Shown in pieces: positions 36,980 to 42,830 of a stretch of 64,000 nt of DNA (positions within the stretch are counted from its first letter, which is position 1; every line of letters starts with the position of its first letter). The stretch is taken from NCBI RefSeq assembly GCF_003858455.1, contig NZ_RQZF01000001.1, positions 372,001 to 436,000 of the forward strand. Direction: 5' to 3'. The stretch comes from Schaalia canis. GTDB lineage: Bacteria > Actinomycetota > Actinomycetes > Actinomycetales > Actinomycetaceae. The position numbers and the translations under genes are program-made. The notes under the pieces are model-generated. The model did no database searches, was not told the DNA's origin, and saw only the letters and a program-made list of their open reading frames with translations.

Positions 36980-38203
36980 GTGAACCCCCTAGTCCCCACG
37001 GATATTCAGGCCGCCATGAGTGACGAGGCTTTACGCCTTCTTGATTTTGGGGCACAGTCTCGCACCGAGCATGGCTTTGGGTGGCTTTCTGATGAGGGCA
37101 CGGTTGATGACGCTCAGGGCGTGCAACTGTGGATCACGGGGCGCATGACTCATTGCTTTTCTCTTGCGGCTTTGATGGGACTGTCGCAGTATGCTCCCCT
37201 GGCCACTCACGGCATTGCCGCCTTACGTTCGGGCGCATTGCGGGCTGAGTCTGATGGCGGGTGGTATTCGCGTGTGGAGATGGATGGGAGCGTCGCTCCG
37301 GGGCTTCGCACCTCCTACGATCATGCCTTTGTTGTGCTGGCTGCCTCCTCGGCTCGTCTGGCCGGGGTAGAGCAGGCCGATGAGCTGCTGCGGGAGGCGA
37401 TTGAGTCTTTTGAGCGCCTGTGGTGGGACGAGGCTGCGGGTATGGTCGTGGATGCTCGCGACCCGCAGACCCTGGAGGTTGATCCCTACCGTGGCGTGAA
37501 CGCCAATATGCACTGGGTGGAGGCCCTGCTGGGAGCGTGGGGTGCGACGGGTGAGCGTGAGCATCTGGAGCGCGCCTCGCGTATTGCGGCTCGCGTGGCA
37601 TCAATGTTCACCGATCACGCCTTCCGCCTGCCTGAACATTTCAATGAGGCGTGGGAGCCTTTACTGGATTACAACCGCGACATTCCTGCCGATAAGTTCC
37701 GCCCCTTTGGTTCGACGCCTGGCCATTGGTTGGAGTGGGCGCGTTTGTTCGCACAACTTGCGTATGCCTGTGACGAGGCCGGGGTGGCGCGCGACGAGCG
37801 CTTGGATGCTATCCCGCCGTTTATGTACCGTCTGGCGCTCCTGGAGGGATGGGGTGTTGATGGGCAGCCTGGTTTTGTCTACACCACAGACTTTGAGGGA
37901 CACCCGGTGGTCGCCCAGCGGATGCACTGGGTGCTCTGCGAGGCCATCGCGACGGCGCAGACGCTGAAACTGACGACAGGCGATGCCTCGTATGGTCACG
38001 ACGTGGCTCTGTTCTGGGAGTACGCGCGCCGCTACCTCATTGAGGCACCCGGCCAGTGGCGCCACGAACTGGATCCTCTCAACACACCCGCGCAGGGCAC
38101 ATGGGCAGGTAAGCCGGATATTTACCACGCCTTCCAGACCATGATTATTGGCACGCTACCCCTGTCGGCCAGCTTTGCGGCAGGTCTGGCACAGCTGCGC
38201 TGA
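36980..38203 (+). CDS. AGE-family epimerase/isomerase, probably mannose isomerase
   Basis: The 407-residue protein has the (alpha/alpha)6 barrel of the N-acylglucosamine 2-epimerase family. Active-site histidines and aromatic residues appear in SYDHAFVVLA, NANMHWVEALLGAW and QRMHWVLCEAI. In bacteria this family includes aldose-ketose isomerases that turn mannose into fructose, which would fit the mannosidases next door. GTG 36980 has AAAGGAG upstream; a longer in-frame form lacks one. The substrate is inferred from context only. Confidence 0.85.
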   Translation: MNPLVPTDIQAAMSDEALRLLDFGAQSRTEHGFGWLSDEGTVDDAQGVQLWITGRMTHCFSLAALMGLSQYAPLATHGIAALRSGALRAESDGGWYSRVEMDGSVAPGLRTSYDHAFVVLAASSARLAGVEQADELLREAIESFERLWWDEAAGMVVDARDPQTLEVDPYRGVNANMHWVEALLGAWGATGEREHLERASRIAARVASMFTDHAFRLPEHFNEAWEPLLDYNRDIPADKFRPFGSTPGHWLEWARLFAQLAYACDEAGVARDERLDAIPPFMYRLALLEGWGVDGQPGFVYTTDFEGHPVVAQRMHWVLCEAIATAQTLKLTTGDASYGHDVALFWEYARRYLIEAPGQWRHELDPLNTPAQGTWAGKPDIYHAFQTMIIGTLPLSASFAAGLAQLR

Positions 38204-38268
38204 ACATATCCCGTCACTGTGAGGGCTGTCTATTGTGTGCGGCTCGAACGACGGTTTCCCCTACAGTG

Positions 38269-38368
38269 ACGTGACAGTTGTTGCGCTGGGTTACATGTGC
38301 TGCGCTGGGTCTTATTTATTGCATGGTGTGACAGCTATAGCTGTCGCAAAAGGTCGCAACTGTCACGT
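38269..38368. repeat. nested inverted repeats upstream of the cupin gene
   Basis: ACGTGACAGTTG (38269-38280) and its exact complement CAACTGTCACGT (38357-38368) enclose a perfect palindrome GACAGCTATAGCTGTC (38330-38345). A direct repeat of TGCGCTGGGT also lies inside. The 276-base gap between the AGE and cupin genes holds no gene. It may be a terminator, an operator cluster built on GTGACAG, or a structured RNA. Confidence 0.6.
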
Positions 38369-38414
38369 AGCTGCGCTCAGTGCTCCCTGTAGTTGCCATG
38401 CGTACGGCCTCGAA

Positions 38415-38433
38415 GCATGTAAGGCTAACCTTA
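38415..38433 (+). promoter_or_regulatory. DtxR/IdeR-type iron box before cupin gene
   Basis: GCATGTAAGGCTAACCTTA matches the DtxR/IdeR consensus TTAGGTTAGCCTAACCTAA at 13 of 19 positions, and the inner TAAGG/CCTTA is palindromic. It lies 46 bases upstream of the cupin start. Confidence 0.55.
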
Positions 38434-38479
38434 GTCCCCTCTTTCGGTGACGCCCCGAACATCTCTGATTGGAGCACTC

Positions 38480-38824
38480 ATGCCTTCCACACCCGTTTCC
38501 GAATCCATCGTCCACACTGGCCTACTGGAACAGCTTCCCATCATTACCGAGGCCACAACCTCACGCGTGGTGGTCAATAATTCCGTGCTACGCCAGGTGC
38601 TATTCAGCATGGATGCCGGCCAGGTGCTCACCGAACACGCCTCGCCACGCGCGGTTATTGTCCAGCTCCTATCGGGGCGCATGTCATTCTCTGTTGCCGG
38701 TGAACCACATGAGCTAAGGGCAGGAGATGTCATCTATTTGGCTCCCAATGAACGCCACGCACTGGAAGCGTTGGAGGCGTGCCACATGGCGCTGACCTTG
38801 GTCCTAGTCGAGGATGACGAATAA
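38480..38824 (+). CDS. small cupin-domain protein under iron-box control
   Basis: The 114-residue single-domain cupin has the two short cupin motifs, TEHASPRAVIVQLLSGRMSF and GDVIYLAPNERHALEAL. Only one His of the first motif and one of the second are kept, so metal binding is uncertain. ATG 38480 has GGAG 6-7 bases upstream; an upstream ATG does not. A terminator follows, so it is a single-gene unit. The iron box in front and the iron-box operon behind link it to iron response. Function unknown. Confidence 0.75.
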   Translation: MPSTPVSESIVHTGLLEQLPIITEATTSRVVVNNSVLRQVLFSMDAGQVLTEHASPRAVIVQLLSGRMSFSVAGEPHELRAGDVIYLAPNERHALEALEACHMALTLVLVEDDE

Positions 38825-38839
38825 GTCTTTTTGCACCAT

Positions 38840-38875
38840 AACCCCGCTCCTGAGGTGAGCGGGGTTTCTTTTTCC
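38840..38875 (+). terminator. terminator after cupin gene
   Basis: AACCCCGCTC (38840-38849) pairs with GAGCGGGGTT (38857-38866), followed by TCTTTTT. It isolates the cupin gene from the next operon. Confidence 0.9.
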
Positions 38876-38883
38876 CTTCCTTA

Positions 38884-38902
38884 TAAGGTCAGCCTCACCT
38901 AA
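38884..38902 (+). promoter_or_regulatory. strong DtxR/IdeR-type iron box
   Basis: TAAGGTCAGCCTCACCTAA matches the DtxR/IdeR consensus at 16 of 19 positions. It lies immediately upstream of the methyltransferase-ABC operon, so the operon should be switched on when iron is short. Confidence 0.8.
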
Positions 38903-38986
38903 AATAGAAACGTTTGCATAACGTAATTCAGGCGCATGCTGCGCCGCCATTCACCCGAACAACGGGAGCATCTGAAGGAGAGCGCC

Positions 38987-39775
38987 TTGAACAACGGTGA
39001 CAACAAGCCAACACCCGGACACTGGCTTCTGGCAAAACTCGGCAAAAAAGTTCTTCGTCCAGGTGGCCTTGCCCTCACCCAGCGCCTCCTTCGAGCAGCC
39101 ACCCCCTCCTCGACAGACAGAGTCGTTGAGTTTGGCCCTGGAGTTGGAACCACCGCAAAAATCCTCCTCGCCGGCCAACCTCGCAGCTATACCGGTATCG
39201 ACCCTCATCCAGAAGGCAGCGAAGCCGTCCACGCCATTATTTCGGGGCTCGATTTCGCTCAACTCGTTATCGCAGACGCTCAAAATACTGGCCTCGACGC
39301 GGGCTGTGCTGACCTTGTCGTCGGCGAAGCCATGCTCACCATGCAGGGTGAAAAGGCTAAACGTGCCATCATCGCTGAAGCATTCCGACTGCTCGCCCCC
39401 GGAGGACGCTACGCCATCCACGAACTTGGCCTCCGACCCGACGACGTACCCGATGCTGTCGAAGAAGAAATCCGCCGCGCACTCTCACGCACTATCAACG
39501 TCAACGCCCGCCCGCTCACCGCCGCTCAGTGGAAAACCCTCCTCGAAGAAGAAGGTTTCATCATCCGCTACGAGGACACCAACCCCATGGCTTTACTCGA
39601 ACCCGGGCGCATTATCGCTGACGAAGGCCTTGCCGGCGCTCTCCGATTCTTCAGCAATGTAGCCCGAAATCCACGCGCACGAGAACGCCTTCTCGCCATG
39701 CGTAAGGTCTTCCGTGCCCACCACGAGCACCTCTGTGCTTTCGCTTTCGTCGCAGTCAAACCCCACGAGGCATGA
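38987..39775 (+). CDS. class I SAM-dependent methyltransferase of iron-box operon
   Basis: The 262-residue cytoplasmic methyltransferase has the SAM-binding motif VVEFGPGVGTTAKILL (about residues 45-60) and the acidic YTGIDPHPEGSE. Motif IV is DLVVGEAMLTMQG and motif VI is LAPGGRYAIHELGL. I prefer the TTG at 38987, which has AAGGAG exactly six bases upstream; ATG 38936 is also open but has no good ribosome site. Such enzymes can act on small molecules. It overlaps the ABC ATPase by 4 bases, so methylation and import are produced together. The substrate is unknown. Confidence 0.85.
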   Translation: MNNGDNKPTPGHWLLAKLGKKVLRPGGLALTQRLLRAATPSSTDRVVEFGPGVGTTAKILLAGQPRSYTGIDPHPEGSEAVHAIISGLDFAQLVIADAQNTGLDAGCADLVVGEAMLTMQGEKAKRAIIAEAFRLLAPGGRYAIHELGLRPDDVPDAVEEEIRRALSRTINVNARPLTAAQWKTLLEEEGFIIRYEDTNPMALLEPGRIIADEGLAGALRFFSNVARNPRARERLLAMRKVFRAHHEHLCAFAFVAVKPHEA

Positions 39776-40458
39776 GCCTTCTGAGCGTGCGCAGGCAAGT
39801 CAGCTCACAGACCCCCATACTCCCTGGTACGCGAGCCCACGATGGCCTGAGCCTGACAGGTGTGAGTGTCTCGCGCCGCGGCCTTCGCCTCATTGATGAT
39901 CTGTCCTTCACCGTCACACCAGGCCAAGTGCTGGGCGTTTCTGGCCCTTCAGGCTGTGGAAAAACAACACTTTTGCGTTGCATTGCCAGCCTCAGCAGCC
40001 ACTACACGGGCAGCATCACCGTGCCCGAAGGACCGCTCGCCATGGTCTTCCAAGAACCCCGACTTCTCCCATGGCGCAGCGTGCGCTCCAACGTCATGCT
40101 GCCCCTACGCACTGCAGATGCGTTCTTCCGCGCTGAAGAATGGCTTGAACGACTGCACCTAGCTGACGCCATGGACCTTTACCCCGCACAACTATCAGGC
40201 GGTATGCGTCAACGCGTAGCCATCGCCCGAGCGCTAGCCACCGAGCCCACACTCCTACTGGTGGACGAGCCTTTCTCTGCCCTGGACGCTCCCCTGGCCC
40301 GCGACCTTCGCGACATGCTTGCTGAGTTAGTCAGCGACAAACAATTCACCACCGTGTGGGTGTCCCACGACATGGAGGAAATCCGTGCCGTATCTACCCA
40401 ACACCTTCACCTCAACGGACCGCCTGGTTCTTGGACGCTCAGTGCTGACCCACACTGA
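39772..40458 (+). CDS. ABC transporter ATPase (Ssu/Tau/NMT1-type importer)
   Basis: The 228-residue ATPase has Walker A SGPSGCGKTTLL near residue 61, Q-loop MVFQEPRLLPWRSV, signature LSGGMRQRVAIARAL, Walker B LLLVDEPFSALD and the switch His in VWVSHDMEE. QEPRLLPW is typical of the nitrate/sulfonate/taurine group (SsuB/TauB). It is coupled to the methyltransferase by ATGA and followed after 45 bases by its binding protein. Confidence 0.92.
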   Translation: MSLLSVRRQVSSQTPILPGTRAHDGLSLTGVSVSRRGLRLIDDLSFTVTPGQVLGVSGPSGCGKTTLLRCIASLSSHYTGSITVPEGPLAMVFQEPRLLPWRSVRSNVMLPLRTADAFFRAEEWLERLHLADAMDLYPAQLSGGMRQRVAIARALATEPTLLLVDEPFSALDAPLARDLRDMLAELVSDKQFTTVWVSHDMEEIRAVSTQHLHLNGPPGSWTLSADPH

Positions 40459-40503
40459 CCCAACAGTGACAACCTCCGACCCTCCACTCTCGAAAGGACT
40501 CCC

Positions 40504-41559
40504 ATGAGAATCCGTGCTCTCGCCCTCCTCTGTGTCGGCGCCCTGGCCCTCACAGCCTGCGCCTCCACGCCAACAGATGCCCCCGCCTCGGCCTCGTCAC
40601 ACGAGGCCACCCAATCCGCACAGGCCACGCCAGCGGCCGACGCGCACGACCACAAACTCGACCAGGTGCGCGCCATCGTCCCCCAAACCATGGCTTTCGG
40701 CGCGCCAATGGCAACCTTCGGCGACCACGGCAACCTCGATAGTGTGGCGAAGGCGCATAGCGTGACCAACTGGGACGGAGTCGAACAGCTCAAATCCCAC
40801 CTGATGAATGGCGAGGCAGAGCTGGCCGCCACCCCCGCCTACGTTGCCGCCAACCTGTACAACAAGGGCATTGACGTGCGTCTAGTGGGACCAGTCGTCT
40901 GGGGGATGCTCTACGTCCTCGCTCCAGAGGGAACCGCTGAGGGAAACTGGGAGGCCATGCGCGGCCAAAAGGTCGCCATCCCGCTGCCCGGAAACATGCC
41001 CGACCTGGTGTTCAGCTACCTCCTGAGCAAGAACAACCTGACGAAAGACGACATCGACCCCGTCTACGCTGAAGATGGCCAGCAAGCCATTGCCCTGCTG
41101 ATGAAGGGCGAGGTCGACTGGATTGTCCTGCCTGAACACGCCGCCACCATCGCCCAAGCGAAGGCCGCCGAAGAGGGCAAGAAGATGACGCGCGCCCTGG
41201 ACCTGCAACAAGAGTGGGCGAAAGTGACGGGTAAGGAAGCCCGCTTCCCCATGGCCGGCCTGGTCATGCCCGGTGCACTGGTGGATGAACATCCCGAGCT
41301 GGTGGAGGCCGTGATTGCCGAGGTAAAGGCCGGTGTGGAGAAAGCGAATGCTGGCGATAAGGCGACCTTGGAAAAGATCGCTCAGCACTACGACCTTCCC
41401 CTGCCGGTGGTGGAAAAGGTTATCCCTCGCCTGCAGTTGAATATGGTTCCCGCCTCGGAGGCGCGTGAGGCTTATGAGGATTTCCTGACCCGTTTGGGTG
41501 AGGTCAACCCCGATATTTACGGTGGAAAGCTGCCTGATGACCGCTTCTACGCGGGCTGA
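40504..41559 (+). CDS. NMT1/SsuA-type substrate-binding lipoprotein
   Basis: The 351-residue binding protein has a lipoprotein signal with lipobox LTAC (cysteine near residue 20). A low-complexity Ala/Ser linker follows with a short His-containing stretch ADAHDHK. The mature fold shows NMT1/SsuA features: ELAATPAYVAANLYNKG, LVGPVVWGMLYVLAP and VAIPLPGNMPDLVF. Known relatives bind sulfonates, taurine or pyrimidine precursors. An iron-regulated member with a partner methyltransferase suggests an unusual ligand; this is inference. Its end overlaps the permease start by 23 bases. Confidence 0.9.
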   Translation: MRIRALALLCVGALALTACASTPTDAPASASSHEATQSAQATPAADAHDHKLDQVRAIVPQTMAFGAPMATFGDHGNLDSVAKAHSVTNWDGVEQLKSHLMNGEAELAATPAYVAANLYNKGIDVRLVGPVVWGMLYVLAPEGTAEGNWEAMRGQKVAIPLPGNMPDLVFSYLLSKNNLTKDDIDPVYAEDGQQAIALLMKGEVDWIVLPEHAATIAQAKAAEEGKKMTRALDLQQEWAKVTGKEARFPMAGLVMPGALVDEHPELVEAVIAEVKAGVEKANAGDKATLEKIAQHYDLPLPVVEKVIPRLQLNMVPASEAREAYEDFLTRLGEVNPDIYGGKLPDDRFYAG

Positions 41560-42316
41560 GTTGGGTGCCGCCCGCCGCTGGTGGTACACCACTGCCGGTT
41601 GCATTGTCCTCGTGCTGGCCTGGGCTTGGGTGGCTCGTGGCCAGCACGAGTACGTGCTGCCCTCTCCCCTATCGACCTTCCAGGCGCTCAGTGAGATCGT
41701 CGCCCACGGGCAGTTCTGGCACGCGCTGGGGTTAACCGTTATGCGCGGCGGTATTGGGCTGGGCCTGGCGATAGCCGTTGGCGCGCTGTGGGGTAGCGCC
41801 ATGGGGCGTTGGCCTGCTTTCGAGGCCTTCTGCCAGCCCATGATTCAGATCCTGCTGGCCACGCCCGCCGTCGTGTTCGTCATCTTGGCGCTGGTGTGGT
41901 TGGGTTCGAGTAGCGAGGCCGTCATGCTGGTGGTTGCCCTGGTGGCAACGCCCCTGTTAGTGCGCACCACCGCCACGGCTATGCGCGGTATTGACCCGTC
42001 TTTGTCGGAGATGGGGCAGGTCTTTGGGTTGAGCCGGTCTGAGCGGGCCTGGCACATTATCGTTCCCCTGGTACTACCGCCCTTCCTTGCGGCAACGACG
42101 GTGGCCATGGGGCAATCGCTTCGGGTTGCGGTGATGGCGGAACTTCTGGCCACGGCCAGCGGCCTGGGCGGGGCAATTCGTCTGGCGCAGATCAATATTG
42201 AGACCCCGCAGGTCTTTGCCTACGCCCTGATTCTGGCAACCCTGGCACTGATCATTGAGAAGCTCTCCACCGCTCCCCTGCAGCGGCGGTTGGCCGTGGT
42301 GCGGGGCGCGGGGTGA
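41537..42316 (+). CDS. ABC transporter permease (SsuC/TauC type)
   Basis: The 259-residue permease has six membrane helices and the EAA-type loop (GQVFGLSRSERAWHIIVPLVLP). This is the single-permease layout of sulfonate/taurine importers and not the ten-helix FecCD type used by siderophore importers. ATG 41537 (MTASTRAE) is preferred; it lies inside the end of the binding-protein gene and has GGTGGAAAG upstream. It ends the operon. No clear terminator follows in the 170 bases to the next gene. Confidence 0.9.
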   Translation: MTASTRAELGAARRWWYTTAGCIVLVLAWAWVARGQHEYVLPSPLSTFQALSEIVAHGQFWHALGLTVMRGGIGLGLAIAVGALWGSAMGRWPAFEAFCQPMIQILLATPAVVFVILALVWLGSSSEAVMLVVALVATPLLVRTTATAMRGIDPSLSEMGQVFGLSRSERAWHIIVPLVLPPFLAATTVAMGQSLRVAVMAELLATASGLGGAIRLAQINIETPQVFAYALILATLALIIEKLSTAPLQRRLAVVRGAG

Positions 42317-42485
42317 GGTGGGTTGAGGAGAGTGAAGGCAGTCGCGTGATGGTGAGGGAAGTGTAGTCCTTTTCTTCCACCTGCAGCTCGTCTGCGATGG
42401 CTGCTGTGCCTCAAGGAGTTTCGCCTGGGAGTAGCCTCTATTCGGCATGATCAAAACCTGACGCTTATCCCTACAATCCTACGAA

Positions 42486-42713
42486 CTAGTACTGCCTGTT
42501 TTCAGCCCGCTCAGCAGGGCGATCATTGGGATGCTGCAGCTTGGAGCCAAAGGGATCGAAGAGCTTTTTGCCGAACAAGACGTGGATGAGGAGCGTCCAT
42601 CCCAATGAGGTGACAACCATAGTGAGTCCATCTCCGAATAAGCCCGTATAGGCCACAACGAGGACCACAACCCACGCCACGATGATGCGGTGTCGGATTT
42701 GGGATGCTGACAT
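42486..42713 (-). CDS. small two-helix membrane protein
   Basis: The 75-residue protein has two hydrophobic helices (about 10-27 and 33-49) separated by GLFGDGL, then a hydrophilic charged tail. AAGGAGG lies 7 bases before the ATG, so translation is very likely. I do not recognise the family. It stands alone, in front of a decayed gene, with a palindrome in its promoter region. Confidence 0.65.
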   Translation of the reverse strand: MSASQIRHRIIVAWVVVLVVAYTGLFGDGLTMVVTSLGWTLLIHVLFGKKLFDPFGSKLQHPNDRPAERAENRQY

Positions 42714-42830
42714 GTTGTGTCCTCCTTCTTTTTAGCAGTACTCCCCCGCGCTCTGCACGGTTCTCGGTAGTGCTGAGCACTTTTCGCCCTGAGATTCACG
42801 CCGTCACTGGCGTTATCCTTTGCAAAACCC

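Follow-up and report, generated by a model that had tools for sequence, protein, structure and literature searches.

A putative iron-starvation module of methyltransferase, cupin and NMT1/SsuA-type ABC importer genes in Schaalia canis

Gene content and DtxR/IdeR-like boxes of the locus

This analysis deals with a group of five genes in a 64,000-nucleotide stretch of Schaalia canis DNA (contig NZ_RQZF01000001.1, positions 372,001 to 436,000; hereafter the window), namely a cupin gene followed by an operon encoding an S-adenosylmethionine (SAM)-dependent methyltransferase and an ATP-binding cassette (ABC) importer. A DtxR/IdeR-like box stands close upstream of each of the two predicted transcription units, and such boxes occur there above chance. 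Bacteria that live with a host rely heavily on iron uptake, and good catalogues exist of the iron importers that bacteria usually employ. The class of importer found here is not usually linked to iron.

All five genes lie on the forward strand. The cupin gene (38480..38824) encodes 114 amino acids from ATG 38480 (GTG 38447 in the list of open reading frames) and was recognized by the Pfam model Cupin_2 with 35.5 bits (cut-off 27.2). It is followed by the gene of a class I SAM-dependent methyltransferase (38987..39775; Pfam Methyltransf_11, 39.7 bits, cut-off 21.2), which has 262 amino acids if translated from TTG 38987, the longest open frame starting at ATG 38936. The gene of the ABC transporter ATPase (39772..40458; Pfam ABC_tran, 106.5 bits) overlaps the methyltransferase stop by four bases; several importer families score alike for this protein, those listed all being below their cut-offs. 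The substrate-binding lipoprotein (40504..41559) was assigned to the NMT1/SsuA fold using Pfam, NCBIfam, a sequence alignment (A1) and a structure model, and its lipobox-like Cys19 is invariant in that alignment. The ABC permease (41537..42316; Pfam BPD_transp_1, 72 bits, cut-off 26.4) has 259 amino acids from ATG 41537, the listed open reading frame starting at GTG 41498. The likely starts of the cupin (aligned in A3), the methyltransferase and the permease were judged by eye, and the genes of the operon read as ordinary open frames. The four genes from methyltransferase to permease are real and as tightly packed as an initial annotation of the locus had described them, but that annotation had overlooked the cupin gene and the box in front of it.

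Box 1 (38415..38433, GCATGTAAGGCTAACCTTA) lies upstream of the cupin gene and agrees at 16 of 19 positions. Box 2 (38884..38902, TAAGGTCAGCCTCACCTAA) lies upstream of the methyltransferase gene and agrees at 17 of 19 positions with the sequence used for scoring, TWAGGTWAGSCTWACCTWA, which we take to be the DtxR/IdeR consensus; measured against the strict palindrome it gives the 16 of 19 reported initially. When the window was searched with a degenerate pattern allowing up to three mismatches, these two sites were the only matches in 64 kb, and 100 dinucleotide shuffles of the window gave a mean of 0.00 matches. In a sister genome (locus L036) a 16/19 box is found at the same place as box 1. 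Since a terminator-like hairpin with a T run (38840..38866, forward strand) parts the cupin gene from the methyltransferase gene, there are seemingly two units that share one regulator, and the cupin gene and the methyltransferase-ATPase-lipoprotein-permease genes probably form two transcription units with one box each. The hairpin is weak evidence taken alone, the region having three terminator-like sites against a shuffle mean of 3.6. A search of positions 38100-42800 with Rfam at the gathering threshold returned no match, including none to the thiamine pyrophosphate (TPP) riboswitch, and a thiamine or hydroxymethylpyrimidine (ThiXYZ-type) importer was rejected as an identity of the system on the grounds that the locus has no such riboswitch.

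In the whole genome of the strain eight sites were found with up to three mismatches, compared with two for a backwards control on each strand. ABC uptake operons stand behind three of the six sites outside the window's pair: an operon with a metal-type binding lipoprotein (C3:47218; nearest family zinc/manganese, nearest curated name zinc AztC), an operon whose genes are ordered like FbpABC (C3:65835; the closest curated binding proteins are those for phosphonate and thiamine) and a binding protein nearest to the Fe-enterobactin family together with permeases (C76:8734). The names given to all three binding proteins score below cut-off. The remaining sites precede CydDC-type exporter genes, of which only the CydC half scores above cut-off (C3:20390, L074), and a permease gene of the ABC_cobalt family (C57:81325, L073), while a third ends about 45 bases before the gene of a 1130-residue surface protein with fn3 repeats (C2:56176; L070:3241-6633). 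The genome has five matches to PF01325, three of which were scanned; two are nearest to MntR and one is nearest to DtxR, with 271.3 bits to NF053665 (DtxR) against a cut-off of 290.

Conservation in Actinomycetaceae and Corynebacterium

A search for the lipoprotein in 200 genomes of the family Actinomycetaceae returned some match in 34 and a clear orthologue, judged by score, in 23 (the window's own genome is included in this and the following counts). The initial annotation had proposed a neighbourhood search for the methyltransferase-lipoprotein pair in this family, and the two genes are indeed found together in 20 of the 23 operon-bearing genomes. The cupin profile likewise matches in 20 of 23, its gene lying upstream of the methyltransferase gene in some and downstream of the permease gene in others; because the cupin gene switches sides of the operon among genomes yet stays with it, the cupin is part of the system. 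Genes in pieces were seen in L050 (methyltransferase) and L057 (lipoprotein and ATPase).

For the upstream-box test 28 intervals from 25 loci were used (the window, 22 family loci, L082 and L100), and the expectation was derived from dinucleotide shuffles. Boxes with at least 14 of 19 positions are present in 18 of the 28 intervals, including the window's two, against 0.23 expected, and ten of these boxes reach at least 16 of 19. The boxes do not exceed 13 in the other ten intervals (the L037 cupin, L038, L040, L046, L048-L052 and L054), and several Actinomyces loci are among those that score only so low. If the boxes were chance matches and the operon not iron-regulated, such box-poor intervals would be in place, but 18 boxes against 0.23 expected, no match in 100 shuffles of the window and the published repression of the C. 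diphtheriae counterparts (described below; PMC13001254) make this explanation hardly credible. Eleven further loci stood outside the 28-interval test; a site of 14-15/19 lies within 420 bases in L087, L088, L099, L113 and L158, and none within this distance in L086, L092, L098, L136, L153 and L171.

In a class-wide search in which five candidates per genome were scored, the binding-protein profile was matched in at least one of 394 genomes, namely in the window's own (E 1e-15), and the methyltransferase was found in 13 of 246 genomes of the phylum, again with the window's own included.

Among 151 Corynebacterium genomes the methyltransferase is present in 41 and the lipoprotein in five, one of which (G1072) has a weak match and a locus in which importer partners were not found. 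These five are all among the 41 methyltransferase-bearing genomes (P of about 0.005 for the four clear cases and 0.001 for five, uncorrected for kinship). In three of the four clear genomes the importer genes are either 177 kb distant from the methyltransferase gene or located on a different contig, and each of these three unlinked importers has a box of its own (14 or 15 of 19), beginning 76-115 bases upstream of the ATPase match. Given this co-occurrence and these separate boxes, the importer tracks the methyltransferase and the regulator even where it is unlinked.

Of the 43 methyltransferase matches in this genus 31 were analysed as loci, and in 22 of them a box of at least 14 was found between -900 and +60 bases of the match, with about two expected from a mononucleotide shuffle rate of 0.07 per kb. 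A match to the cupin profile is present in 14 of the 31 loci, several being weak (22-40 bits), and several loci (e.g., L214, L216 and L225) combine the order methyltransferase-cupin with boxes.

For C. diphtheriae the iron response of such a pair is already in print. In the RNA-seq data of Table 1 in PMC13001254, DIP0762 (annotated as methyltransferase type 11 and as the first gene of its operon) is listed with -5.98 log2 at high versus low iron and with -4.96 log2 in the wild type versus the dtxR mutant at high iron, and the cupin gene DIP0761 with -3.11 and -2.28 log2, respectively. These published data on the annotated counterparts support iron repression of the genes analysed here.

Relatives in Proteobacteria and Bacillota

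A pattern-based scan of genome contigs yielded 61 loci, of which 24 are actinobacterial, 31 proteobacterial and six from Bacillota or other groups. The methyltransferase adjoins the importer in 19 of the 24 actinobacterial loci, in some of them as pieces, and lies near it in just two of the 31 proteobacterial loci (Vibrio tapetis and Cohaesibacter). An outer-membrane barrel of the TonB type is encoded near nine of the 31. In L104 (5682-7751) such a barrel gene immediately precedes those of the importer and of NnrS; its product is nearest to a copper-receptor family, below cut-off, and the plug domain was not matched in Pfam.

Fur-like sites were scored in 16 intervals, which had been picked after a first whole-locus scan, using 300 shuffles for each. 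A match of 15 or 16 of 19 was found in ten intervals and was reached by 0/300 shuffles: two in L104, two in L107 and one each in L187, L188, the receptor gene of L190, L109, L111 and L114, the last three sites being nearly identical and hence not independent. Weaker scores were obtained for L170 (12), L189 (14, p 0.007), the cupin gene of L190 (13) and three Cohaesibacter intervals (7-12), to which another motif may apply. Within the closer branch of the Vibrio order, three of four loci have a Fur-like box before the methyltransferase gene, and two Vibrio genomes have one before the importer operon. A Bacillota gene run that includes the importer likewise has such a box upstream; in L109, L111 and L114 the site stands in front of a GTPase gene, with which the run opens. 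Boxes of two unrelated iron repressors, DtxR and Fur, thus recur with the system across phyla.

Among 197 genomes of the Vibrio order the methyltransferase was found in 15, in 12 of them with weaker scores of 139-166 bits. Loci L189-L200 represent this more distant branch, with a cupin match nearby solely in L189 and L190. In L107 (3262-5592, Vibrio) and L111 (5195-7554, Peptococcaceae) genes of a HypB/UreG-like GTPase, a soluble ABC ATPase and a binding protein stand before the importer, with Fur-like sites upstream; no signal peptide was seen by eye in this binding protein. The L107 proteins were typed by Pfam, and those of L111 were assigned by their match to the L107 ones.

Putative function and comparison with known systems

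We consider it somewhat more probable than its negation (roughly 0.55) that the locus is an iron-starvation module, in which two DtxR/IdeR-repressed units import an iron-linked organic compound that is processed in the cytosol. Under iron-replete conditions the repressor, loaded with Fe, would occupy both boxes, and both units would be expressed when iron is low. The lipoprotein would capture a small organic molecule connected with the supply of iron, i.e., an iron-binding ligand or its iron complex, and the ABC importer would carry it into the cytosol, where the methyltransferase and the cupin may act on the compound or its product, e.g., by freeing the metal or by making the ligand harmless. 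Import as the direction of transport is suggested because a binding lipoprotein is present. Repression in this strain, the nature of the ligand and the action of the enzymes on it are what we infer. Iron control, which the initial annotation had proposed, is well supported by the two boxes, their recurrence in orthologues, the published repression in C. diphtheriae (PMC13001254) and the Fur-like boxes in other phyla. The unusual iron-linked ligand that it had suggested is plausible, though unproved.

Several observations weigh against such a module. The operon is accessory, being present in 23 of the 200 family genomes and broken into pieces in one of them, and 10 of the 28 intervals are poor in boxes, as listed above. 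DIP0762 and DIP0761 were equated with the window pair by annotation and gene order rather than by sequence, and the accessible text of PMC13001254 has no gel shift for them. In Corynebacterium a clear importer is absent from 37 of the 41 methyltransferase-bearing genomes; because the methyltransferase often occurs without the importer it cannot depend on it, and it is not dedicated to it as had been proposed initially, the cupin being its first partner and the importer optional. Among the neighbours searched for in the proteobacterial loci NnrS is the commonest (20 of 31), YgbA_NO is encoded nearby in a Cohaesibacter locus (L103:10145-10522) and is fused to DUF454 in one Bacillota locus (L111:11200-11919), and FNR-like sites (9 or 10 of 10) lie 34-48 bases from the Fur-like sites in L104, L107, L187 and L188, L170 having an FNR-like site and no Fur-like one. 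The YgbA_NO genes beside importer or methyltransferase genes may reflect a link to nitric oxide stress, and together the NnrS and YgbA neighbours point towards nitric oxide and away from simple iron uptake.

The main alternative is that the iron control is real and no iron is imported: the methyltransferase and the cupin would perform an iron-sparing or damage-control reaction, e.g., on a quinone, a thiol or a metabolite damaged by nitric oxide, and the importer would supply a vitamin- or cofactor-like precursor. The rarity of clear importers in Corynebacterium would fit, as would the company of NnrS, YgbA, hemerythrin and Crp/Fnr regulators around the relatives, the cofactor-binding PqqT-like and Thi5-like folds and the increased abundance of DIP0762 after macrophage uptake given in PMC13419099. 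We nevertheless regard this alternative as rather unlikely, since importers unlinked from the methyltransferase keep boxes of their own, and since in two Vibrio genomes the importer is found together with receptor-like outer-membrane barrels that are themselves placed under Fur-like sites, which fits better with the uptake of a scarce iron-linked compound.

Two canonical pathways were also considered. Haem oxygenase is present in 34 of the 41 methyltransferase-bearing Corynebacterium genomes versus 57 of the other 110 (Fisher P 0.0006, uncorrected for kinship). Within the family it is found in 16 of 200 genomes, G099 (76% complete) being the sole operon carrier among them, and the window's own genome has no match. 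The use of haem through haem oxygenase, one form of the haem-related reading suggested initially, was therefore dropped. The narG enzyme of nitrate respiration is matched in 106 of the 200 family genomes and in 16 of the 23 operon-bearing ones (the window's counted among the 23), which is no strong link to the operon, and is not matched in the window's genome. Since neither enzyme has a match there, nitrate respiration by the narG enzyme and canonical haem breakdown do not explain the module in this strain.

Going beyond the iron-starvation module in this strain, one may ask for a common iron route in Actinomycetota, Vibrio and Bacillota. It would take up organic or nitric oxide/thiol-liganded iron by the NMT1-type importer, with an outer-membrane barrel added in Gram-negatives, the methyltransferase and cupin would release the iron by modifying the ligand, and control would be by DtxR in one phylum, by Fur in the others and additionally by FNR-type anaerobic or nitric oxide regulation in Vibrio; we hold so broad an extension to be distinctly doubtful. 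Searches of the open-licence literature returned no description of the whole module, of the iron boxes of the importer or of the system's recurrence across phyla. That a sulfonate- or cofactor-class importer with iron boxes is tied to a methyltransferase and a cupin, and is met again in three phyla under boxes of unrelated iron repressors, suggests that an iron source or a reaction to iron stress has so far escaped description. The module also offers a setting for a gene pair of C. diphtheriae that is strongly repressed by iron and is uncharacterised.

With this pair, DIP0762-DIP0761, the window pair has in common the annotated gene types, their adjacency and order, and the counterparts are repressed by iron and DtxR (PMC13001254); the pair differs in that the table lists no importer gene with it and in that its function is uncharacterised. 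For the methyltransferase the nearest NCBIfam family is DVU_1556 (73.7 bits, cut-off 155), and its model (predicted local distance difference test, pLDDT, 89.5) matches the fold of small-molecule SAM methyltransferases. The nearest curated permease in NCBIfam is SaoP of the SaoP/SaoA (SAO) system, described as a Sec-assisted organometallic system in PMC13188914, but with 81.6 bits the permease is below the SaoP cut-off of 295, and membership in SAO was rejected. The lipoprotein model (pLDDT 88.4) matches 3hn0, SsuA and PqqT and is placed in the SsuA/PqqT/Thi5 class. PqqT, solved with pyrroloquinoline quinone (PQQ) alone and with PQQ and Gd3+, shares with it the predicted fold at 16% identity; the models give a fold class from which no ligand follows.

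The "Ssu" and "NMT1" labels chosen initially hold as names of the nearest families, but the scores are below the curated cut-offs. The binding protein has 37 bits to the SsuA family (cut-off 163.5), on which ground SsuABC membership was rejected, and the permease 58.7 bits to SsuC (cut-off 347). That an ordinary importer of sulfonates, taurine or nitrate was put under iron control, perhaps for the needs of iron-sulphur clusters or cysteine, could be argued from the nearest curated names (SsuA, SsuC, TauC and nitrate subunits) and from E. coli SsuA as the second-best VIA-align fold match of the lipoprotein; these low scores, together with a cupin and a methyltransferase as the partners kept across genera, render it improbable. 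Compared with importers of the SsuABC, TauABC and NrtABC type, the window importer shares their fold and three-subunit layout, but it scores far below their curated cut-offs and is distinguished from them by its iron boxes and by its methyltransferase and cupin partners.

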